A DNA stretch of 64,000 nt, from NCBI GenBank assembly GCA_027026255.1, contig JALVOT010000003.1, forward strand, positions 62,001 to 126,000. The letters run 5' to 3'. Shown in pieces: positions 20,715-33,406 of this stretch; position 1 is the first letter of the stretch; each line of letters opens with the position of its first letter. Both the position numbers and the translations under genes were made by a program. The stretch comes from Caldifarciminota bacterium. GTDB taxonomy: Bacteria > Hydrothermota > Tepidihabitantia > SM23-42. The notes below the pieces were generated by a model. It did not search any database. It saw only the letters and a program-made list of their open reading frames with translations, and was not told where the DNA came from.

Positions 20715-23700
20715 ATGGTCATTGCACTGATTCTAACGGTGGGATTGCTGCATAGCACGGCAATTCCATTGACTACAGCCAGGGGGATTCAGAATTCATT
20801 TCACCAACAATCATCTCAAATTTCTAAAGTGCCAGTTTCTAAGGTACCGGTAAACAAGGCATCTTTTATAAAACAAGAACATACTCGGTTTATTCCGGTG
20901 AAATATGGTAATGCAACTGAGATTCAGTTTTCCAACGGAATTAAATTTGACACAAAGACCCTTGGTAAATCAGGTGAACCAGCATTAATTGCTGATTTAA
21001 GCTATAAACCGGGTGAATCTTCATATTATATAATTCAATTCTCAGGGCCAATCTATCAGGAACAGCGGAATTGGTTAAAAAACAAGGGCATTAAAATCCA
21101 CTTCATTATCCCCAGATACGGCTTTGTCTGTACCATAAAGGATCCCGCAACCCTTCAAAAATTAAAAGACAATCCCGGTATAAACTGGATTGGCCTTTAT
21201 CAACCCGCCTATAAGATTTCAAAATTATTTGACCGGGTAGAGGATAAGCATAAAGCAACAATACTCCTCTTCTTAGACGCCGATATAAATAAGGTTTTAG
21301 AACAGGTTAAGACAATTACAAAGTCAAACGAGTTTATCACCTCGGACAACGGAATAAATAAGATCATCCAGGGCGTCATAAATAAATCCTCGATTAACCA
21401 GATTGCTCGAATTCCAGGAGTTTACTGGATTGAACCCTATATTCAACCAAAACTTTACAATGATAATGTCCAGTGGATTCTTCAGGACGCCCAATCCGGT
21501 GTGCGCAATATCTGGAACAAGGGAATTCATGGAGAGGACGAAATTGTTAATAACTGTGATTCAGGTGTTAATACCCAACATTATCAACACCGTTCCGGCA
21601 GTTTCCAAATAAGAACCTGGGGCTATTATCCTTCACATCATGCTATTGTTGCCTACGATTCGGGTGCCCCATCAAACATCGTATTTGGTGATGGTGCTGG
21701 AGCATCTTATCATGGAACCCATACTGCCTGTACCATCACCGGTGATGATGCACCCCTGGGTAATTCAAATTACGACGGTATTGCACCCAAATCAAAGCTC
21801 TACTTCAATGACTGCGGGGATAATACATCCGGAAGTGTCTATACCTTCCCTGATTTGAATGACCTTTACATCCGTCCATACAACAAACACTATCCACCTA
21901 TCCGCGCCCATATAAGTTCCAATTCCTGGGGTGCAAATAACTCCGGTGCATACGATGCAGAGTGTCTTCAAGCTGATCAATTTATGTGGGGACATAAGGA
22001 TTTCTTACTCCTGTATGCAAGTGGGAATGCCGGCACAAACGGCAGTGTTGGCTCACCCGCATCTGCCAAGGATGTTGTTACAGTGGGCGGTGTCCTTAAT
22101 GGAAGTAGATTCCACAGATTCTATTCATCAACCAGCCGCGGACCAACCAAGGACGGCAGAATAAAACCGACAATTGTTGCACCGGCCCAGAATGTATATT
22201 CTGCAACCTCAGGGACAAATAATTACAGTGGTATGGGCGGTACAAGTATGGCCTGTCCAGGTGCTGCCGGCGCGGCGGTCCTGGTACGTCAATATATAAG
22301 AGAAGGCTGGTATCCAACCGGACAAAAGAATCCAGACAACGCAGTAAACTTTATCAGTGCCTCACTTATAAAGGCAATTCTAATCAACTGTGCAGACCCT
22401 GATATCAGCAGCAACGGTAATCCGCCCTATTATTCAATTCCCAGTATGAGGGTTGGATGGGGTAGAATTGACCTTGATTCTACGCTCTATTTTGCCGGTG
22501 ATGCACGTAAAACCCTATTGGTTGATGATACGGTTGGTGTCCTTACCGGTGAGCGGGTGGATTATCATTTCAGACTTCCCTCAGGAGCCCGGAATCTGAA
22601 GATTACCTTAGTCTGGACCGATTATCCAGGCAATCCTGCAATTCAAACCCAGATTGTCAATGACTTAGACCTTTCCGCCCGTATCGGTAATACATATTAT
22701 CGTGGTAACCAATATTCCGGTGGTCAATCAGTATCCAACCCCTCAGGACGCGATTCGATCAATGTCGAGGAATGCATCAGGGTTAACAACCCGGGTTCAG
22801 GTGATTGGCTGATTTCAGTTGAAGCCAGAAATGTACCGATAGGCCCGCAACCCTTCAGTCTGGTTATTACCTATAATGCAGGCTCAGTTGCCGGAGTCGT
22901 TACCCTGGACAAACCGGTTTACAGGGCAAATGATTTTGTGACTGATACGGTCAGGGTCAGAGTCGAAGATACAAATTATGGTTCTGCAGGCTCGGTTGAC
23001 CATGTAATGGTTCAGGTCCGCAGTTCATTAACTGAAACCCGGCCTGAGACATTATCCTGTACTGAATATGGTAATGGTGCCTATATCTTCAGTGGCGAAA
23101 TTTCTCTGCTCTTTGGTAAACCAGTGCATGGTGATGGTAAACTTTCGGTCTCTCAGGGTGATACGATCTGGGTTTCATATGTTGATAATAATCCCTCATA
23201 CACTTCAATGACCTGGGCAGGTGTAGATGCCGAATATTTTTTAATCAACAATGTTCATGCGGAAAATATCCAAGCGGTATCTGCCGAGATTTGCTGGAAT
23301 ACCAATGATAACAGTAATTCAAAGGTTTATTATGGAACCGACCCTAATAATCTGAATCATACTGCCGGTATAGATACACCTTATGTGGCACAGCATCGTG
23401 TAAGGTTATCGGGTTTGACCCCGAATGCTTTATACTACTATGATGTGGAATCAAGGGATTTCCGCGGCAATGCAGTAAAAGACAATAACGGTGGTCATCA
23501 CTATACATTTACAACAAATGCTGCTGGTGGCGGCACTGATGTTCTGGTAGTGGTTTTGAACAATAATCTTTCCGGCGTGGAGTTCGCCCATCCGGACTTT
23601 CTTGCCAAGGCATTGGATGCCGGCGGCTGGACCTATAACTGGTGGTCGACCAAGGACGACGGGGCAATTACCCGGAACCAATTAAAACAGTATAAAGCAG

Positions 23701-25265
23701 TCTTTTTCCAGGCGGGACAGGAAAACTATCCACCCTGGACTGTCGCCCAGAAAGAGACAATCAAACTCTATCATAATGGTGGTGCACGATTCGCAATGAC
23801 CGGCCACGACATTGGTTGGGCACCCTGGAAAAACAATCAAGAAGCGGATACTCTATTCTGTAAGGACTATCTCCATTTCCGTTATATTGGTGATATTACT
23901 GCCACAAGTTGGACAACACTGCACGGCATTGCAGGTGACCCGATATCCGGCTCACATACTGGTGGTGTTCAATACCAGCCCTTCCGACAGGGTGCAGCCG
24001 GGGATTCAATTCGACTCTCAGGAACCGGTGCTCCTGGAACCGGAACCTATGTCTGGCATGGCAATGCAGCAAATGATTCCTGTGCAATTAAATGGGAATC
24101 CCAGAACAATATGGGCACTTCAGGTGACGGTATCTGGGGTGGACATAAGACCCGGGTTGTAACCAATGTCTTTGAAATAACACAGATTGACACAGCAAAT
24201 CCGAACAGTACAATAAGAACCGACATCCTGAATAAGTTGTTCATCTGGTTAATTGGTCACGACCACCCTGATGTTTCAATCACCTCACCGGTAGGTGGAC
24301 GGACCTATACTTCAGATACAATCACAATCTCCTGGAATGCCGCAAGTCACGGCGGTGCTGCGATTGATACGACCTGGATTAAATACTCACCCGATGGCGG
24401 ACAGACCTGGTTTGTAATCACCTCAGGCACCAATGTTACTTCACCCTACCAATGGGATGTGAGCAATTTAAGCAATGGATCACATTACCAGGTAAAGATT
24501 ACGGTCTGCGATAAGAATGTTTATCCTTCAATGAAGGGTTCAGGGCAGACTACAGACTTTACGATCAATATTGCAGGTAATGACTTCGCAGGTCCCAGGG
24601 TATTACCACAATCGATTATTGTTAGACACAATCCGATGATTGTAACACCTTCGAACACAAGTATGTTATTTCAGGCTGCAGTCAATGATTCATCAACTGG
24701 ACTGAGTAATATATCCGCGGCGGAATGGTCATATGGCAGTTCACCATCATCTGCCGGCAATGGTTTCCCGATGTTTGCTCTGGACGGCTCATTCAATGAA
24801 ATCCAGGAAGTTACGGCTGACACCCTTTATTTTACCTACACCTCAGGCAACACTGAAATTTGTACCCTCTGGGTACGTGGTAAGGATGCCGCAAACAACT
24901 GGGGTAATGCATTAATGCGCACCTTCACAATCATCGATGGAGTTCTCTCGGCACCCGGTGTTTCAGATACTGGCGAAAGACTCCCTGTCCATTTTGCACT
25001 CTCTGCACCTATGCCCAATCCATTCTCAAATGCCGTTGCAATTCAGTATGCAGTTCCCAGACCGAAGAAAATCAGTCTCCAGGTTTATAACTGTCTTGGC
25101 CAGGTTGTAAAGACCCTGGTTGACAACACGGTGAAACCTGGAATCTACAAGGTCTTCTGGGATGGAACCGATAATCAGAATCGCCGAGTAAGTGCCGGTA
25201 TATACTTCTACCGCTTAACCACGGATGAATACACGAGCACGAAAAAGACTGTGATGATTAAATAG
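20715..25265 (+). CDS. Large secreted subtilisin-like protease with C-terminal sorting domain
   Basis: A 1516-residue secreted S8 serine peptidase. A signal peptide (about residues 1-23) is followed by propeptide-like regions to about residue 245. The catalytic triad is complete: Asp in CDSGVN (about 281), His in YHGTHT (about 334) and Ser in GGTSMACP (about 510). A jelly-roll-like domain follows (about 590-725), then a fibronectin III domain (about 850-925), a GATase/ThuA-like region (about 935-1165) and Ig-like strands. The last 80 residues are the FlgD/T9SS-type sorting domain (PMPNPFSNA, FWDGTDNQNRRV, GIYFYRLTT). It stands alone with its own promoter, leader and terminator. Natural substrate unknown; extracellular protein scavenging or surface maturation is plausible. 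Confidence 0.92.
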   Translation: MVIALILTVGLLHSTAIPLTTARGIQNSFHQQSSQISKVPVSKVPVNKASFIKQEHTRFIPVKYGNATEIQFSNGIKFDTKTLGKSGEPALIADLSYKPGESSYYIIQFSGPIYQEQRNWLKNKGIKIHFIIPRYGFVCTIKDPATLQKLKDNPGINWIGLYQPAYKISKLFDRVEDKHKATILLFLDADINKVLEQVKTITKSNEFITSDNGINKIIQGVINKSSINQIARIPGVYWIEPYIQPKLYNDNVQWILQDAQSGVRNIWNKGIHGEDEIVNNCDSGVNTQHYQHRSGSFQIRTWGYYPSHHAIVAYDSGAPSNIVFGDGAGASYHGTHTACTITGDDAPLGNSNYDGIAPKSKLYFNDCGDNTSGSVYTFPDLNDLYIRPYNKHYPPIRAHISSNSWGANNSGAYDAECLQADQFMWGHKDFLLLYASGNAGTNGSVGSPASAKDVVTVGGVLNGSRFHRFYSSTSRGPTKDGRIKPTIVAPAQNVYSATSGTNNYSGMGGTSMACPGAAGAAVLVRQYIREGWYPTGQKNPDNAVNFISASLIKAILINCADPDISSNGNPPYYSIPSMRVGWGRIDLDSTLYFAGDARKTLLVDDTVGVLTGERVDYHFRLPSGARNLKITLVWTDYPGNPAIQTQIVNDLDLSARIGNTYYRGNQYSGGQSVSNPSGRDSINVEECIRVNNPGSGDWLISVEARNVPIGPQPFSLVITYNAGSVAGVVTLDKPVYRANDFVTDTVRVRVEDTNYGSAGSVDHVMVQVRSSLTETRPETLSCTEYGNGAYIFSGEISLLFGKPVHGDGKLSVSQGDTIWVSYVDNNPSYTSMTWAGVDAEYFLINNVHAENIQAVSAEICWNTNDNSNSKVYYGTDPNNLNHTAGIDTPYVAQHRVRLSGLTPNALYYYDVESRDFRGNAVKDNNGGHHYTFTTNAAGGGTDVLVVVLNNNLSGVEFAHPDFLAKALDAGGWTYNWWSTKDDGAITRNQLKQYKAVFFQAGQENYPPWTVAQKETIKLYHNGGARFAMTGHDIGWAPWKNNQEADTLFCKDYLHFRYIGDITATSWTTLHGIAGDPISGSHTGGVQYQPFRQGAAGDSIRLSGTGAPGTGTYVWHGNAANDSCAIKWESQNNMGTSGDGIWGGHKTRVVTNVFEITQIDTANPNSTIRTDILNKLFIWLIGHDHPDVSITSPVGGRTYTSDTITISWNAASHGGAAIDTTWIKYSPDGGQTWFVITSGTNVTSPYQWDVSNLSNGSHYQVKITVCDKNVYPSMKGSGQTTDFTINIAGNDFAGPRVLPQSIIVRHNPMIVTPSNTSMLFQAAVNDSSTGLSNISAAEWSYGSSPSSAGNGFPMFALDGSFNEIQEVTADTLYFTYTSGNTEICTLWVRGKDAANNWGNALMRTFTIIDGVLSAPGVSDTGERLPVHFALSAPMPNPFSNAVAIQYAVPRPKKISLQVYNCLGQVVKTLVDNTVKPGIYKVFWDGTDNQNRRVSAGIYFYRLTTDEYTSTKKTVMIK

Positions 25266-25856: not shown

Positions 25857-27584
25857 TTGAAAAAATTTTCCGTTCAATTGGATCCATTAACTGGAGAAAA
25901 ATATATTGAGGTCCCGTTCAAGGGTCATCCTGTAGTAGATAATCCAATCTATAATAAAGGTTCGGCCTTTACTGAACAGGAAAGGGAATTACTAAATCTC
26001 TATGGTATTCTCCCCGACCAGGTTTCAAATATTAAAGACCAGACCCGCCGTGCCTATGAAAATTATTCCCGAAAACAAAGTCCTGTAGAAAAATATATAT
26101 ATCTACTCAGCCTTCTTGACCGCAACGAAACCCTATTCTATCACCTCTTTCTAAAAAATATAGAAGAAATGCTGCCTATTATCTACACTCCAACTGTTGG
26201 CGAAGCGGCAAAGACCTTCAGCCTTCTATTCCGAAGACCACGCGGCCTCTATGTTTCATCCCAGAAGATAACCTTTATCGATCGCATTCTATCTAATGCC
26301 CCATTCTCAAATATCAAATTGATTGTTGTTACAGATGGCGAAAGAATCCTGGGACTTGGAGACCAGGGGGTTGGAGGAATGGCAATCCCCATCGGCAAAA
26401 CCTGTCTTTATGTGGTGGGCGGAGGACTGCATCCGGCACTCTGTCTTCCCATCCTTTTGGATGTTGGCACAGACAATGAAGAGCTACTCAAAGACCCCCT
26501 TTATCTTGGTCTAAAACATCGCCGTTTGAAAGGACAAGAATATGATGCAGTAGTTGAAGAATTCGTTAAAGGTATCAAACGTTGTTTTCCTCATGCCGTG
26601 TTGCAATGGGAAGATTTTGGCAAACATAATGCGCGCCGTCTTTTAATGCGTTATCGAGAACGTATCTGCTCATTCGATGATGATATCCAGGGCACCGGTG
26701 CCGTAGCCCTTGCCTTTTTATATAATGCAATGCGCCTCAAAAAAGAAACCTTAGCTCAACAGAACTATCTTATCTTCGGTCTTGGTCAGGCTGGATATGG
26801 TGTAGGCCAGACCATCATCTCCGCATTGGTAGACCAGGGTCTTACCCCGGAACAGGCAAAGAAAAAAATCTATGCGATTGATCGTGATGGGTTACTTCTG
26901 GAAAATATGAAACTTGACGAATACCAAAAACCATTTGCCCACAAAATCGAGGAAATATCATCCTGGCATTTGAAAAACAAAAATCATATCGGGCTTCTGG
27001 ATACTATAGAAAATGCGAAAATCACCGTGCTTATCGGTACTTCTGGTGTCACAGATGCATTTGATGTCCAGGCGCTTAATCAATTAGCAAAAAATTGTTC
27101 AAAGCCGGTTATCCTGGCCCTTTCCAATCCAACCAGCAAGAGTGAATGCACACCGGATTGTGCTTTAACAGCATCAAAGGGAAATTGTATTATCGGCACT
27201 GGCAGTCCATTTGCACCGGTCGAGGTCAACGGTCGAAAACAAAAAATTCCTCAGTGCAATAATATGTATATATTCCCCGGTTTGGGTCTGGGTGCATCAT
27301 TATCAATGACCCCGAAGATCACCGACCGGATGTTTATCGCATCGGCTCGGGCACTGGCAGAACTTGTTCCCGATTCAGAACTGGAACAGACAATATTCCC
27401 TGATATAAACAATATTCGAAAGATATCTGCCGCAGTAAGTTTTGCAGTCCTGAAAGAGGCACGGGATTCCGGACTGGGGATAAGGAAATCAGACCAGGAA
27501 TTAAAAAAGCTGATTGAACACTCAATGTGGGAACCCAGGTATCTGCCTTACAGATACGAAGGACCAAACAAAGAATTTGATTGA
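25857..27584 (+). CDS. NAD(P)-dependent malic enzyme (large, ME-family type)
   Basis: A 575-residue enzyme that oxidatively decarboxylates malate to pyruvate. It is the long form shared with eukaryotes and E. coli MaeA. Motifs: YTPTVGEAAK, VTDGERILGLGDQGVGGM (substrate and metal region), WEDFGKHNARRLL, CSFDDDIQGTGAV (metal Asp/Glu) and the Rossmann loop FGLGQAGYGVGQ, then LSNPTSKSEC. Length is normal. It starts with TTG at 25857, 5 nt after AGGAGG. No separate promoter is seen between it and the terminator at 25801-25827, so its transcription may come from read-through or a weak promoter within the 30-bp gap. Confidence 0.95.
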   Translation: MKKFSVQLDPLTGEKYIEVPFKGHPVVDNPIYNKGSAFTEQERELLNLYGILPDQVSNIKDQTRRAYENYSRKQSPVEKYIYLLSLLDRNETLFYHLFLKNIEEMLPIIYTPTVGEAAKTFSLLFRRPRGLYVSSQKITFIDRILSNAPFSNIKLIVVTDGERILGLGDQGVGGMAIPIGKTCLYVVGGGLHPALCLPILLDVGTDNEELLKDPLYLGLKHRRLKGQEYDAVVEEFVKGIKRCFPHAVLQWEDFGKHNARRLLMRYRERICSFDDDIQGTGAVALAFLYNAMRLKKETLAQQNYLIFGLGQAGYGVGQTIISALVDQGLTPEQAKKKIYAIDRDGLLLENMKLDEYQKPFAHKIEEISSWHLKNKNHIGLLDTIENAKITVLIGTSGVTDAFDVQALNQLAKNCSKPVILALSNPTSKSECTPDCALTASKGNCIIGTGSPFAPVEVNGRKQKIPQCNNMYIFPGLGLGASLSMTPKITDRMFIASARALAELVPDSELEQTIFPDINNIRKISAAVSFAVLKEARDSGLGIRKSDQELKKLIEHSMWEPRYLPYRYEGPNKEFD

Positions 27585-27608
27585 CATTCCAATAAAAATC
27601 TATATAAT
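27581..27608 (+). promoter_or_regulatory. tRNA-Asn promoter
   Basis: TTGACA (27581-27586), 16-bp spacer, TATAAT (27603-27608). It overlaps the last codons of the malic enzyme gene. The mature tRNA starts 8 nt after the -10. Confidence 0.85.
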
Positions 27609-27616
27609 ACAATAAT

Positions 27617-27688
27617 TCCTCGGTAGCTCAATGGTAGAGCATCCGGCTGTTAACCGGAGGGTTGCAGGTTCGAGTCCTGCCCGAGGAG
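27617..27688 (+). tRNA. tRNA-Asn (GTT)
   Basis: A full cloverleaf: acceptor TCCTCGG with CCGAGGA, D arm GCTC ... GAGC, anticodon stem TCCGG with CCGGA around CTGTTAA (anticodon GTT), and T arm GCAGG TTCGAGT CCTGC. The discriminator is G and CCA is not encoded. It sits just before the BREX-like cassette. The 300 bp that follow (27689-27959) hold no gene that I can support. Confidence 0.97.
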
Positions 27689-27959
27689 TTTACCTTACAA
27701 TACGGATATAATCAGGTTAAATGAAATACCCAAACCATTTTTGATAAAAAACTTAAAAATCAAAGCAGAAACCGGGAAGAGGAAAAAATGGATTTGACAT
27801 TATGTGGGCCCGGGCACGATGCAATGCCGTACATCTTGTCCCATCACAATCACCGATGTCCGCCCCGTCCAAATCCTTCACCAGGACTCAGGATTTTACT
27901 GATACCGCCAGATAGATAAAAACCGATATTGTTGTCTGTCAACCCCTGCAGATGGAGGC

Positions 27960-27987
27960 TTGACACCCCGTCATAATTGAATATGAT
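27960..27987 (+). promoter_or_regulatory. Promoter of the BREX-like cassette (leaderless type)
   Basis: TTGACA (27960-27965), 16-bp spacer, TATGAT (27982-27987); ATG 5 nt downstream at 27993, no ribosome site. It drives a tightly packed four-gene operon. Confidence 0.7.
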
Positions 27988-27992
27988 TATAT

Positions 27993-28829
27993 ATGGAGCC
28001 GGAGATATTAGGACGACTAAAGAAACTTTCAAAACTCAGCAATCGGCTCGCAAAACTGCTTCTGGACTACAATAAACTGAAAGAAGACGCCTTAAAAAAC
28101 GGCTATCTTCTGGACAAGAAACTTACTGAAATCACAAAGATAAAGGACCAATTTGAGGAGTGTGAATTAAAAGAGTTCCTGAATAAACTCATCAGTAAAG
28201 AAAAAGAAGAATCAGAAAAGATAAAAGATGAGTTTCGCTTCCGGTTTGGACAGGAATTAAAAAAACTATTAGAGAAAGATGGATTGATATTAAAAGGACA
28301 ATATCCGATTATGCGCATTGGACTTTTCACCCTGAAACTTGACTTTGAATTCGGCTCAGCCAGCCTCTATTTTGGTCCCGAGATCGAAAAAGTCCGCACC
28401 AAAATTCCCCTCCAGACCAACCTCATCTATGAGACGATAAAAAAAGTCAATGAAAACTTAAAGAAAATCGGGTTCAACCTTACCGAATCATTTCAGCGGC
28501 TGCTCGAAGCCTATAAACGGGCGATACTATTAAAGAAGAAAACATTCGGTGACCGTATTCTTTTGAATGAAGTTCTAACCCAATTTGTTCTATTGAGCCA
28601 GCCCAAAAAGTTCTTTATCGAACCCAAAAAAGAGAACTTCCAGGAATTTTCCCGGATGAAACTCGGCTATCTGCTCTACCAATTAAAAAAAGGAGGTTTT
28701 ACCCGGCAGGGAATGAGGCTATATGTTGCAACATTTGATGCAACCCTGAATAAACTCCGGCATCTATGGGTTCCTGAAAACGAGCAGGGCGAAGGAACTC
28801 ACTATGCATATATTTCATTTGAAAAATGA
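27993..28829 (+). CDS. Unknown coiled-coil protein, first gene of the BREX-like cassette
   Basis: A 278-residue protein that I cannot assign. Residues 1-95 are a charged coiled coil rich in Lys and Glu. A beta segment follows (about 98-135: YPIMRIGLFTLKLDF, SASLYFGP). The rest is helical and ends in a conserved-looking LRHLWVPENEQGEGTHYAY. It has no membrane segment or obvious nuclease or ATPase motif. Its stop overlaps the next gene (ATGA), so it is probably a stoichiometric partner of the ATPases. In comparable clusters this position is sometimes held by TerB-type proteins, but I see no TerB signature here. Promoter and start support a real gene. Confidence 0.75.
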   Translation: MEPEILGRLKKLSKLSNRLAKLLLDYNKLKEDALKNGYLLDKKLTEITKIKDQFEECELKEFLNKLISKEKEESEKIKDEFRFRFGQELKKLLEKDGLILKGQYPIMRIGLFTLKLDFEFGSASLYFGPEIEKVRTKIPLQTNLIYETIKKVNENLKKIGFNLTESFQRLLEAYKRAILLKKKTFGDRILLNEVLTQFVLLSQPKKFFIEPKKENFQEFSRMKLGYLLYQLKKGGFTRQGMRLYVATFDATLNKLRHLWVPENEQGEGTHYAYISFEK

Positions 28830-30082
28830 ATCCTGCACCCCTGAATAAAAAAATTGCCAAGATGATAATACATCAACTGGGAAGTTCCGGTACACCACCC
28901 CGGTTTGGTGTTGAGCATTTCAGTGTGGGTTTAGACATTTTTCTCAAAATCATTGAGGATGAATATCTAAAAGATATCTTAAAATTGAACCTCTCTTCAT
29001 TCAAGATGATTACCGGGAATTATGGAGGTGGTAAAACACACTTTCTCTTGATGATTAGAAACCTTGCCTGGAAGAATGGTTATGTCACAAGCTATGCCCA
29101 ACTCGGCCCGACCGAATGCCCATTTGACCGTCTGGAACTGGTCTATAAAAATATTGTGCTCAATATTGCACCACCATCAAAAGATAAACCGGAAGCGGCT
29201 CAGAACAATAGCGGCATTGACCTTCTTTTAAAAAGAATCAGTAAAAAAGGAGTCCGAAATCTTTTATCAAAATTATCCCGCCTTGAGAGTTCAAGTTTTG
29301 CCAATGCCTGTAAGGCTGCAATTGACAACCTCAGGGCGGACGATGAAGAAGGCTTTTATGAAGTTATCCAGTGGCTTAAAGGTGAAGAGGTATCAAAGGA
29401 CCTGCGCCTCAGATATCGAATATCAGAAAGGATTGATCGCAGCAATGCCTTTAGAATGCTGCGCAGTCTGGTGCAATTTATCAATGCAATGGGTTATTCA
29501 GGCCTGATACTACTATTTGATGAGGCAGAAAGAGGGATGAGTATCTCTTCAAGCCGGGACAAGCGCCGTGCCCTTGATAATCTGAGACAACTCGTTGATG
29601 AATGTGGTAATTCAAGACTACCCGGAGCAATGTTCTTTTATGCAATCCCGGATGAAAACCTACTTTTAGAGGGCAGCGGTGGTGTTTATGAAGCATTAAA
29701 ACAGCGACTTCGTTCCAATTTTACAACGATAAATCCCCTCGGTGTAAAAATAAATCTTGAGGAACTGGGCCCTGAACCTGCAGAATTCTTGACCCGGCTT
29801 GGTAAAAAACTTAAAACGATATTTGAAATTGCCTACGACTGTGAATTGAATGATGAATATCTGACACCTTCAATGAAGAATCTCATCGAAACCGCCTTAG
29901 AATTGCAGGCCCTCGATATCAGTTATCGAAGAATATTTGTGGTCGGTATCATTGAGGCATTCCAGAGATTGAAACAGGAACAAAAATTGATAACAACACA
30001 GGAGGCGCAGGAAATCCTCAGGTCAAGCGTAAGAATGCTTTCGGAAAAGGAAAGAAAAGAGATTGAAAGCGAAGAGTATTAG
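28826..30082 (+). CDS. DUF2791 (BrxC/BrxD-type) P-loop ATPase 1
   Basis: A 418-residue P-loop ATPase. Walker A is TGNYGGGKTHFL (about residues 63-74), and Walker B is LILLFDEAERG (about 228-238), with the DEAE seen in the DUF2791 family. The FGVEHFSVG segment before Walker A and the YAIPDENLL sensor-like segment after Walker B also fit. Family members include BrxD of some BREX types, where BrxD is paired with the BrxHI helicase. The protein is cytosolic, with no membrane segment. It overlaps the first cassette gene by 4 nt. Partner genes pglX and pglZ are absent here. Confidence 0.85.
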   Translation: MNPAPLNKKIAKMIIHQLGSSGTPPRFGVEHFSVGLDIFLKIIEDEYLKDILKLNLSSFKMITGNYGGGKTHFLLMIRNLAWKNGYVTSYAQLGPTECPFDRLELVYKNIVLNIAPPSKDKPEAAQNNSGIDLLLKRISKKGVRNLLSKLSRLESSSFANACKAAIDNLRADDEEGFYEVIQWLKGEEVSKDLRLRYRISERIDRSNAFRMLRSLVQFINAMGYSGLILLFDEAERGMSISSSRDKRRALDNLRQLVDECGNSRLPGAMFFYAIPDENLLLEGSGGVYEALKQRLRSNFTTINPLGVKINLEELGPEPAEFLTRLGKKLKTIFEIAYDCELNDEYLTPSMKNLIETALELQALDISYRRIFVVGIIEAFQRLKQEQKLITTQEAQEILRSSVRMLSEKERKEIESEEY

Positions 30083-30085
30083 GAA

Positions 30086-31393
30086 TTGAACAAATTAAAG
30101 AATATAAAAACAAAGATTGTTACCCACCCTATCTTCGGTGAAGGTATCATAAAAAATGAAAAATGGGATGGTCAGGAGGTCCAGGTTCAATTCCATTGTG
30201 GCCTCACCCTGTGGTTGCCAGCGCGCTGGCTTAAGTCCATCAATCTTCCCAATATAAGATCAAATCAGATTTCATCCAAACGATTAATCGAAGCCTTCAG
30301 ATTGGGAATCGTGCCGCATCAGGATGTCGAATTTTTTACCTTCTGCAGGGGTTATGAAGTAAACCGACTTCAAAAAGGTTTAAATAGTTTGAAAAATGGT
30401 CAGGGAAGTGTATATATCATTGAAGGTTCTTATGGTTCAGGTAAAACCCACCTTTTAGAATATATCCGGCACATTGCATTAAAATATGGCTATGTTACCG
30501 CCTATTGTGAATTAAACAATCAGGAGACTCCATTATATCGACCCAAAAGGGTCTATCGGGAGCTGGTATACAACCTGCGTTATATAAAAGATGGCAGTGT
30601 CTATACATTCCGTGATCTGCTCAGACAGCTGAGCGCAACGAATATATCCGACCACTGTTTCTTCACCCCTCTATTCAAACACCTGCGCCGCTTAGACAAT
30701 GGCGACCATCAGACCGAGGTATTCTGGCAATGGATTGAAGGGGAATCCACCAAGGACTATGCAACCAACATCCGTTCACCATTCCGGGTCCGGGGCGGGC
30801 AGTCCATACCTGCCCTGTATGACTTTTCTACGGCGGCTGATTTCTATTGTTATATCATCACTGGATTGAGCCATCTGATAAGAGAAAATGATATGGGGGG
30901 ACTGGTAATCATCCTTGATGAAGTTGAAACAATCTTCCATTACCGATGGAATAATACCCTTTTCCAGCGCGGCTTGAATTTTCTTGCCGGCCTCATCTAT
31001 TCTGCGGTAAATAAAAAAGAATTGAAAAGGATTAATAATACAATGCTGCATAACCGTGTCCGGCCTACCCCCTATATCTATGGAAAACCGAATATCCTTA
31101 TCATTCTCGCCATAACCCCGGTATCCGCCGAACCGGGTCTAAAAAACTTCAATGACATCACCGCAGAAAGGTTGATTTTGAAAAAATTCAGTGATTCAGA
31201 ATTTGAATTAATCTATGATAATCTATATAATGTTTATCAAACTGCCTATCCAGGGTTTAAAATAGACCCGGAAGACAGAAAAAAGATTTTCACTGCGGCA
31301 TTAAAAAGAACATCCGGAGATTTAAGGGAATTTATTAAATTTTCAGTTGCCACATTTGACTGGCGGAGATTAAAACATATCTTCCAATCATAG
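30086..31393 (+). CDS. DUF2791 (BrxC/BrxD-type) P-loop ATPase 2 with N-terminal Tudor-like domain
   Basis: A 435-residue paralog of the preceding ATPase. Walker A is EGSYGSGKTHLL (about residues 113-124) and Walker B LVIILDEVETI (about 273-283). Shared landmarks with ATPase 1 include the H-x-L/F-L after Walker A and the YGYVTAY strand. It differs in an N-terminal module (about residues 8-52: VTHPIFGEGIIKN, then VQVQFHCGL) that resembles the Tudor/KOW-like domain at the end of PcrA/UvrD helicases, which contacts RNA polymerase or nucleic acid. Start is TTG, 3 nt after the previous stop; the ribosome site is weak (AGGA), so coupled translation is likely. The helicase gene follows with no gap. 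Confidence 0.82.
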   Translation: MNKLKNIKTKIVTHPIFGEGIIKNEKWDGQEVQVQFHCGLTLWLPARWLKSINLPNIRSNQISSKRLIEAFRLGIVPHQDVEFFTFCRGYEVNRLQKGLNSLKNGQGSVYIIEGSYGSGKTHLLEYIRHIALKYGYVTAYCELNNQETPLYRPKRVYRELVYNLRYIKDGSVYTFRDLLRQLSATNISDHCFFTPLFKHLRRLDNGDHQTEVFWQWIEGESTKDYATNIRSPFRVRGGQSIPALYDFSTAADFYCYIITGLSHLIRENDMGGLVIILDEVETIFHYRWNNTLFQRGLNFLAGLIYSAVNKKELKRINNTMLHNRVRPTPYIYGKPNILIILAITPVSAEPGLKNFNDITAERLILKKFSDSEFELIYDNLYNVYQTAYPGFKIDPEDRKKIFTAALKRTSGDLREFIKFSVATFDWRRLKHIFQS

Positions 31394-33406
31394 ATGCGGC
31401 CTGAAGATTACAGTATCAAAAACCGCCTTGGAAAAACCTGGCATCCATTTTTTGGCCATTTTGGAAAATTCACAGAAATCCAATCCTTAACCATTCCCCA
31501 TATTCTTGCCGGTGAAAATGTGGTCGTCATTTCACCCGCTGCCACCGGTAAAACCGAGGCTGTTATCGCCCCGCTTGTGGAGAGATTGATACAAAGAAAA
31601 GCCCTGACTCCAAACAAACTCTCAATCCTCTATGTCTCACCAACCCGCGCCCTGGTAAATGACCTTTTTCGTCGGCTGATTCAACCGCTCAGCTGTCTGC
31701 ACATTAAAATAGGAATCAAAACCGGGGACTATCCTGCTCTTACACTTAAAAAACTTCCCCGGATTATTTTAACCACACCGGAATCATTTGATTCACTCCT
31801 GACCCGACAGACCGGAATTTTTGAACAATTGAATGCTTTAGTTCTGGATGAACTCCATCTCATAGATAATACACCAAGGGGTGACCAGTTAAGAATATTA
31901 TTAAATCGGCTGCGCAGAATAACAAAAAATATTCAGTGCTGTGCACTTTCAGCAACCATCGATGATATCAATATCGGTAAGCGTTACTTTGAAAACCCCC
32001 GGGTCTGTATTCTCCAATCTCCAAAGGAGATTGAATATCTACTCATATCCCAGGACCGCTTTGTAAGAAAATTACTGGCAACCGCCCGAGCCCGCGGTAT
32101 AAAAAAGATGCTGATATTCTTTAATGCCCGAAGTTATGCCGAATCATTTTCCCGACGCCTGAATCAACCGCCCTTTGAAGGCAGAGTCTTGGTGCATCAT
32201 GCAAGCCTGACAAAAAATCGAAGGGAAGAGGTTGAAAAAACGATGATTCAAAATGACCGGGCAATATTATGCGCAACCTCAACCTTAGAATTGGGAATAG
32301 ATATCGGTGATATTGATTGCATTGTGCTGCATCGTCCCCCGCATAATATCTCCTCATTACTCCAGCGTATCGGAAGGGGAAATCGAAGACAGAATAAACT
32401 ATTTGCCGTCGGTATTTATAAAGATAATCTGGAAAAGATGCTCTTTGAATCTTATTTTGAATGCGCCCGTCAGGGCAGCCTCTTTTCAGAAAGATACAAC
32501 CCCACCCTTTCTATAATCCCCCAGCAGATATATTCTTACCTGTATCAGCGCCGGCGCATCGGAACGACATTAAAAAGTCTCTACCGCATATTTGAACCTA
32601 TATATACAGCATTGCAGGTAAAGACCGTATTTAAGAAATTGCTTGATGACGGCTTAATAAAAGAATTTCGACCCGGCATATATTATGATTCTGAAAAACT
32701 GGAGAAGAAGATAGCCTGGGGTAAGATTCACTCCAATATTGCAGAAATAAACTTCGGTGAATATGATGTCTTCGATATCAGTCAAAACAGGATTATCGGT
32801 AGAATCTTTTATGTCCGCAATCAATTCATCCTGGGCGGTCGTTGCTGGCAGACCGTCCAGGTTCAACAAAAAGAACGGAGGGTATATGCAAAATATGTTC
32901 AGGATATTCCCGCCCTTGCCCGGATCTTTGAAGGAAAAGGAGAGAGAACTTACAATTATCTGCTTGCCCCTATATTAAAAAGTAAACTTTTTCCAGAGCT
33001 GGACGGGTTTAATTTTCCCTTCACCTACGACGGCCGGAATACGCATATTCTGCATCTATTCGGTGCCCTTTATGGTTTTATCCTGGCTGAAGCACTCAGC
33101 CGGGAAGGGATTGAAACAATCGACCTCGAAGGAAAACTGTTTATATTAAAGCGATTTCAACTTGTTAACCAGGAATTTCCTGCACCCCGGGTCGAATCCA
33201 TCCGGAAGGTAATCAATGATAATATAAGAAGATTAGAAGATGCCCTGGGTAGTGGTGCATATTTTTATGACCTGCCCCTCGAATATCAAATTGAGGACCA
33301 TTATCGTGCCCTTGATATCAATGGATTTTTGAACTTTCTTAATTCCATCAATCTCGTCCCGATCGACAAAGACAAATTTTATGATATTGCAAAGGGTTTA
33401 AAATAA
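31394..33406 (+). CDS. DEAD/DEAH-box superfamily 2 helicase of the BREX-like cassette
   Basis: A 670-residue helicase. Motifs: I (SPAATGKTEA, about residues 53-62), Ia (YVSPTRALVNDL), II (LDELHLID), III (LSATIDD), then in the second RecA domain TSTLELGIDIGD and motif VI (LLQRIGRGNRR). The spacing and the GRGNRR motif resemble Lhr-type and BrxHI helicases. The C-terminal 250 residues have a winged-helix-like part (about 385-440) and an unassigned end. It starts immediately after the second ATPase stop. In BREX types with BrxD, BrxHI is the neighbouring helicase, so a functional ATPase-helicase unit is likely; its actual job here is unproven. Confidence 0.87.
   Translation: MRPEDYSIKNRLGKTWHPFFGHFGKFTEIQSLTIPHILAGENVVVISPAATGKTEAVIAPLVERLIQRKALTPNKLSILYVSPTRALVNDLFRRLIQPLSCLHIKIGIKTGDYPALTLKKLPRIILTTPESFDSLLTRQTGIFEQLNALVLDELHLIDNTPRGDQLRILLNRLRRITKNIQCCALSATIDDINIGKRYFENPRVCILQSPKEIEYLLISQDRFVRKLLATARARGIKKMLIFFNARSYAESFSRRLNQPPFEGRVLVHHASLTKNRREEVEKTMIQNDRAILCATSTLELGIDIGDIDCIVLHRPPHNISSLLQRIGRGNRRQNKLFAVGIYKDNLEKMLFESYFECARQGSLFSERYNPTLSIIPQQIYSYLYQRRRIGTTLKSLYRIFEPIYTALQVKTVFKKLLDDGLIKEFRPGIYYDSEKLEKKIAWGKIHSNIAEINFGEYDVFDISQNRIIGRIFYVRNQFILGGRCWQTVQVQQKERRVYAKYVQDIPALARIFEGKGERTYNYLLAPILKSKLFPELDGFNFPFTYDGRNTHILHLFGALYGFILAEALSREGIETIDLEGKLFILKRFQLVNQEFPAPRVESIRKVINDNIRRLEDALGSGAYFYDLPLEYQIEDHYRALDINGFLNFLNSINLVPIDKDKFYDIAKGLK

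Follow-up and report, generated by a model that had tools for sequence, protein, structure and literature searches.

An apparently undescribed four-gene ATPase-helicase tetrad of WOR-3 bacteria with likely kinship to the BREX and Shango immune machines

Introduction

What do four tightly packed genes, two of which encode paralogous ATPases resembling those of bacteriophage exclusion (BREX) systems, do in a genome segment otherwise filled with housekeeping genes? The genes in question, referred to here as A, B1, B2 and H and together as the tetrad, are located at 27993-33406 of the + strand of a 64,000-nucleotide stretch (hereafter the window) of Caldifarciminota bacterium (assembly GCA_027026255.1, contig JALVOT010000003.1, positions 62,001 to 126,000). 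A first-pass annotation of this DNA described them as a minimal BREX-like cassette next to a tRNA gene, and left open whether they formed a defense or DNA-maintenance system or a core module of the cell with kinship to BREX ATPases. In this report, the tetrad appears to be related to the immune machines BREX and Shango, although itself not described before. The signs found outside the WOR-3 lineage point to defense, while those found inside it point to a core function.

A recurrent four-gene system

Gene A (27993..28829, 278 amino acids [aa]) encodes the signature protein of the tetrad and overlaps by 4 nt with B1 (28826..30082, 418 aa), whose product is an AAA+ (ATPases associated with diverse cellular activities) protein of the BrxC/BrxD family. 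After a 3-nt gap, B2 (30086..31393, 435 aa, TTG start) encodes a second, divergent AAA+ ATPase of the same family, and H (31394..33406, 670 aa), which starts 0 nt after B2, encodes a superfamily 2 (SF2; DEAD/H, Ski2/Lhr-like) helicase of the SngC/BrxHI kind, so that all open reading frames (ORFs), each on the + strand, overlap or abut. The coordinates, order and junctions are the same as those given in the first-pass annotation, and the Walker motifs that it read are present: GNYGGGKTH (Walker A, aa 64-71) and DEAE (Walker B) in B1, and GSYGSGKTH and DEVE in B2. This motif class is kept in the relatives.

The four genes are found together in most WOR-3 loci, and the same gene order is found in at least 10 places outside WOR-3, including other phyla and plasmids. 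Such recurrence puts the tetrad, as judged from gene order, far beyond chance.

Relationship to BREX and Shango

Profile search, which the first-pass annotation had named as the test of its BREX link, upheld the placement of both ATPases in DUF2791: B1 and B2 match Pfam family PF10923 (BrxC_BrxD) with E-values of 2.4e-48 (165.5 bits) and 2.4e-28 (99.7 bits), respectively, at a cutoff of 22.2. Among the PADLOC models, B1 matches BrxD (1e-38) and SngB (2e-28). Neither ATPase reaches the score of BrxD of BREX type 2, as B1 and B2 obtain 130 and 87.5 bits with the NCBIfam equivalog model NF033438, under its cutoff of 350. Both paralogues retain Walker A and Walker B. A sequence search of the Protein Data Bank (PDB) with B1 yielded no match, and the sole match in a single-sequence scan of contigs was a WOR-3 relative 82% identical to B1. 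The structure model of B2 (predicted local distance difference test [pLDDT] 88), which rests on sequences of WOR-3 and other genomes and on no plasmid sequences, has the Sulfolobus Orc1/Cdc6 heterodimer 2qby as its top fold match (E 6e-6). Several chains of origin recognition complexes (ORC) are also matched, with moderate template modeling (TM) scores of about 0.35-0.43 and with other AAA+ proteins listed too. By its modeled fold, B2 would belong to the ORC/Cdc6 clade of AAA+ proteins. In the ATPase tree, B1, B2, SngB, BrxD and the plasmid ATPases form distinct clades.

For H, the best PADLOC match is SngC (4e-61), closely followed by BrxHI (5e-61), in agreement with its first assignment as a BrxHI-like helicase. 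The helicases of the WOR-3 and plasmid tetrads are, however, split from a SngC plus BrxHI group with a support of 1.00. Three subtypes of the tetrad were recognized: a WOR-3-like one with H of about 670 aa and a Tudor domain on B2, a scattered one with a short H of about 525 aa and mostly with the Tudor domain, and a divergent one that includes plasmids and is mostly without it.

The tetrad resembles the BrxD-BrxHI dyad of BREX type 2 in that a BrxC/BrxD-family AAA+ (ORC/Cdc6) ATPase is followed by a Ski2/Lhr-like helicase, but it differs in its two ATPases, its gene A, the Tudor domain on B2, its separate helicase clade and the lack of PglZ, PglX and BrxC. Similarly, it shares with Shango (SngA-SngB-SngC) an accessory protein and an adjacent pair of a SngB/BrxD-like ATPase and a SngC-like helicase. 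In contrast to Shango, whose SngA is a TerB protein and whose plasmid loci have the three-gene TerB-SngB-SngC form, the tetrad has a second ATPase and an A that is unrelated to SngA: it gives no match to TerB and resembles none of the three SngA proteins compared.

Gene A had been left unrecognized by the first-pass annotation, and its product indeed has no family match in Pfam, PADLOC or NCBIfam. Its structure model (pLDDT 92.5) consists of long N-terminal helices (3-30, 37-51 and 58-94), a beta sheet and a helical C-terminal part, which may be winged-helix-like given the order of its elements. Fold searches against the PDB and viral models returned nothing significant, and weak fold matches to ORC/Cdt1 winged helices were not used as evidence. 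A profile made only from WOR-3 members matches the A proteins of the Desulfomonile and Aulosira plasmids (4.8e-7 and 1.8e-6, respectively). Kinship of A with SngA, PglZ or H was considered and rejected, as control proteins gave only 0.16-0.75 with a slightly broader A profile.

A putative RNA polymerase tether and a proposed mechanism

The N-terminal Tudor-like module that had been noticed in B2 (30110..30235, + strand, about aa 9-50) is supported both by the structure model and by similarity to known Tudor domains: in a profile search of the PDB, the first ~50 residues match the C-terminal Tudor domains of UvrD and PcrA (7egt, UvrD, 2e-4; also 7egs, 6yi2 and 5dma, PcrA). CarD_TRCF_RID is matched by 1 of 25 B2 members (0.0026). 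The Tudor domain of PcrA binds RNA polymerase, and mutation of H681 severely reduces this binding (PMC5397179). The invariant His of the B2 domain (H14) aligns with H681, and an aromatic residue occupies the position of W684, while the positions of K712 and L714 have no match. Unlike the UvrD/PcrA domain, which is C-terminal on a superfamily 1 (SF1) helicase, that of B2 is N-terminal on an AAA+ ATPase. By sequence similarity, the B2 domain falls among the UvrD/PcrA-type Tudor domains, and its binding of RNA polymerase is putative.

BrxD has been proposed to load or activate BrxHI (PMC12839542). Because of this proposal, the ORC-like fold of B2 and the kept Walker motifs, we favor a two-subunit loader for H. 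We propose that B1 and B2, as two different ORC/Cdc6-type AAA+ subunits, may assemble into an ATP-dependent heteromer, a loader or switch that would place H on DNA or activate it there, while A may recognize DNA or a DNA structure and serve as a scaffold. In the WOR-3 branch, the Tudor domain of B2 may dock on RNA polymerase and thereby steer the machine to transcribed or stalled DNA. The phenotype and target that we infer would most likely be those of a machine that inspects and disrupts abnormal or foreign DNA, which may act as a defense-like system elsewhere and as a fixed, constitutively expressed core module in WOR-3.

Tetrads outside WOR-3

Tetrads outside WOR-3 were sought by tblastn of plasmids and in 390 genomes spread over Bacteria and 350 genomes of one large other phylum; the phylum surveys around G204, G282, G189 and G233, with 1-4 genomes each, were little informative. 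On plasmids, a ~280-aa protein, two ATPases and a helicase are encoded in this order by Desulfomonile tiedjei pDESTI.01 and by the conjugative plasmid3 of Aulosira laxa. On the latter (L105:1-11554), genes for a PglZ-domain protein, a BrxD-like ATPase and a BrxHI-like helicase, which are BREX-2-like, are directly followed by the tetrad. Further tetrads were found in G282 (two), G390, G204, G233, G189, G264, G263, G605, G557 and G509. A, B1 and B2 are also present in G347, G560 and G575, where H is present or unread. In the large phylum, matches were found in 8 of 350 genomes, two of which are Shango-like, and the tetrad is missing from a genome congeneric with one of the carriers; as judged from these counts, the tetrad is patchy there.

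Several of these loci have defense-linked neighbors. For instance, a gene for a DUF1156/HmaB-like DNA methylase lies downstream of the divergent tetrad of G557 on the same strand (L170:15451-18402), and AbiE lies near that of Desulfomonile. The neighbors also include a convergent gene for a phospholipase D (PLD)-family protein in G605. In G292 (L145), A-B1-B2 without H are followed by an N6/N4 DNA methylase gene and preceded by PIN and zeta-toxin-like genes. The tetrad helicase of G263 (L144:5966-10696) is a single 1576-aa ORF, in which a BrxHI/SngC-like part is followed by an SF1 AAA_11/AAA_12 helicase resembling MkoA of Mokosh.

Separately, a BrxD/SngB-like ATPase gene was observed on a Klebsiella plasmid (NZ_CP097678.1, L108) between Tn5403 and insertion sequence elements, isolated and apparently partnerless, and about 440 other Klebsiella plasmids have a match.

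Defense or genome maintenance in WOR-3

The first-pass annotation had suggested asking whether the four-gene order is patchy, as for defense, or conserved, as for housekeeping. The answer is divided: the order is conserved within WOR-3, while outside it is patchy, plasmid-borne in two cases and defense-linked in several. Among 147 WOR-3 genomes, in which Cas1 was run as a yardstick of a known defense gene, the ATPases occur in 61, A in 58, all among those 61, and a close H in 56. The components co-occur (A and ATPases 58/0/3/86 for both, A only, ATPases only and neither, p 8e-38; ATPases and H, p 9e-30), with p values that are overstated, as related genomes are not independent. In seven families (f1, f2 and f6-f10), the tetrad is present in 52 of 55 genomes, compared with 13 of 55 for Cas1. 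The B1 and B2 trees mostly follow the families and mainly agree with each other, and identity drops with kinship. The genomic site differs among genera, and in f7, f9, f27 and f37 A and/or H are located elsewhere in the genome yet kept, which speaks for a common function and not a common position. The dN/dS ratios (nonsynonymous to synonymous substitution rates) of close pairs are 0.04-0.15 for B1, B2 and H and 0.10-0.23 for A; by this measure, the tetrad genes are under purifying selection.

The predicted promoter fits the first-pass alternative of a core module. A near-consensus sigma-70 promoter (TTGACA-16-TATGAT) is predicted at 27960..27987 (+ strand), and since 5 nt separate its -10 box from the ATG of A, the transcript is predicted to be leaderless and is probably constitutive. 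Such promoters, ending 1-12 nt before the start of A, were found in 21 of 33 WOR-3 loci, where 0.29 were expected from shuffles, and before 31 of 263 other genes. Taken from gene content and trees, the tetrad is a core, vertically inherited module in WOR-3, as that alternative had it. As an aside, a second, divergent tetrad of the short-helicase subtype was seen beside the normal one in genome G074 (L149, contig C72); its B1, 43% identical, is cut by the contig end, and contamination is possible.

We consider it an even chance that the tetrad carries out defense-type surveillance, as an undescribed four-gene system akin to the BrxD-BrxHI and SngB-SngC dyads. Its original role was probably defense, and in WOR-3 it was probably fixed as a core module for surveillance. 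A number of observations weigh against this view. In WOR-3, these are the near-universal retention in the seven families, the low dN/dS (0.04-0.23), the housekeeping neighbors with nothing defense-like among them and the lack of a nuclease or methylase in the WOR-3 operon. Outside WOR-3, the defense neighbors were counted in a few loci read by hand, with no background rate for comparison, and no tetrad copy was found in phage and viral collections including IMG/VR. In addition, the deep branching order among the ATPase clades is weakly supported (0.45-0.76), and the Tudor domain is mostly absent from the divergent subtype, including plasmids, and therefore docking on RNA polymerase cannot be the general mechanism.

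The same observations give substance to a tentative alternative, which we regard as possible: the tetrad may be a core WOR-3 genome-maintenance module that, for example, clears transcription-replication conflicts or stalled polymerases, with polymerase-docked B2 and B1 loading H at trouble spots. The BREX and Shango relatives would then be defense offshoots, or the WOR-3 copy would have been domesticated. Vertical, near-universal occurrence where Cas1 is sparse, purifying selection, a leaderless promoter like that of housekeeping genes, housekeeping surroundings, co-retention of unlinked components and the putatively polymerase-binding Tudor domain are all in its favor. However, the tetrad is missing from many healthy WOR-3 families, f3-f5 of the same class among them, and is therefore not essential to the phylum; outside WOR-3 it is patchy and defense-linked, and its closest named relatives are all defense proteins. 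A farther-reaching version appears doubtful to us, namely that an RNA polymerase-docking, heteromeric ORC/Cdc6-like helicase loader serves as core transcription-linked surveillance in a whole bacterial class and shares descent with the BREX-2 and Shango engines, the same engine being housekeeping here and immune elsewhere. Surveillance and maintenance can both be true, as an innate immune system may be fixed in a lineage, or a defense engine may be recruited for genome upkeep.

Other explanations

That the tetrad is a remnant or minimal BREX of type 2, left after loss of PglX, PglZ, BrxC and the rest, is improbable. The matches of B1 to BrxD and of H to BrxHI, and the position of one plasmid tetrad directly after BREX-2 genes, would fit such a remnant, but on that same plasmid the tetrad and BrxD-BrxHI are separate copies lying next to each other, the helicases are separated with full support, B1 scores far under the BrxD cutoff, and A and the second ATPase are not BREX components. 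No BrxC was found elsewhere in the genome of the window. PglZ and PglX were not seen in the window, either among its 25 commonest Pfam families listed or with PADLOC, and were not searched for genome-wide. The first-pass statement that other BREX genes are absent from the window is thus borne out, as no BREX or restriction genes were recognized there and the PADLOC matches are single proteins resembling generic enzyme domains, but its label of a minimal BREX gives way to a separate tetrad marked by a signature gene of its own. Among these PADLOC matches, one in the flanks, to mad2, is not assigned to a gene.

A mobile defense island integrated at tRNA-Asn, the other reading raised by the first-pass annotation, is highly improbable and already contradicted. 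tRNA-Asn(GTT) (27616..27689, + strand) lies 303 bp upstream of the tetrad as a neighbor rather than an established part of the system, and the site does vary between WOR-3 genera. The tree follows the families; no second copy of the tRNA 3' end occurs in the window, as had been observed before; no integrase was recognized among the flanking ORFs; and a tRNA is directly upstream only in the genome of the window, nearly all other copies being without an adjoining one. A single conserved site with vertical phylogeny had been named as what would make a mobile defence role unlikely. The site is not conserved, but inheritance is vertical in WOR-3 (52 of 55 genomes in the seven families), and because of this a recently mobile role appears unlikely there.

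Finally, replacement of DnaA, or of the partner of DnaA, by the tetrad as another replication initiator or helicase loader, as the ORC/Cdc6 fold of B2 might suggest, is scarcely credible and was rejected, as DnaA is retained in 138 of the 147 genomes, nearly all tetrad carriers and the genome of the window among them, and H is an SF2 helicase rather than a replicative hexamer. The tetrad does share with the archaeal and eukaryotic Orc1-Cdc6 helicase loader the fold of B2 and the combination of paired paralogous ATPases with a helicase, but its helicase is of SF2 and not MCM (minichromosome maintenance).

Other features of the window

The rest of the window is housekeeping in character, with genes for leucyl-, methionyl- and seryl-tRNA synthetases, S2, EF-Ts, ribosome recycling factor (RRF), L13, KsgA, malic enzyme and others. 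A perfect 12/12 sigma-70 promoter is located at 27581-27608, directly upstream of tRNA-Asn, and serS and hslV also have near-consensus promoters of the leaderless type. A subtilisin-like protease of 1516 aa is encoded at 20715-25265, with a C-terminal sorting-like domain and the end ...SAGIYFYRLTTDEYTSTKKTVMIK.

Implications

In open-licence full texts, we found no published description of the tetrad, of A, of the paired ATPases or of the Tudor tether, no paper that uses DUF2791 and none that treats WOR-3 together with BREX. A 2026 survey of BREX (PMC12839542) presents BrxD only as a stand-alone ATPase of type 2 and makes no mention of Shango or of a tetrad of this kind. The parts are of known kind; what lacks a description in these texts is the four-gene system and, within it, A, the ATPase pair and the Tudor tether. 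As PADLOC has no matching model, A is a ready marker for further copies missed by current defense-finding models.

For the BrxD-BrxHI and SngB-SngC engines of two immune systems, the helicase-loader idea can be put directly to the test in such a simpler relative, which has two specialized ATPases, a built-in putative RNA polymerase tether and a signature partner. The tetrad leads a split life, patchy and defense-linked elsewhere but inherited in WOR-3 like a fixed housekeeping gene, and would thereby clearly exemplify exchange between immunity and the core upkeep of the genome.

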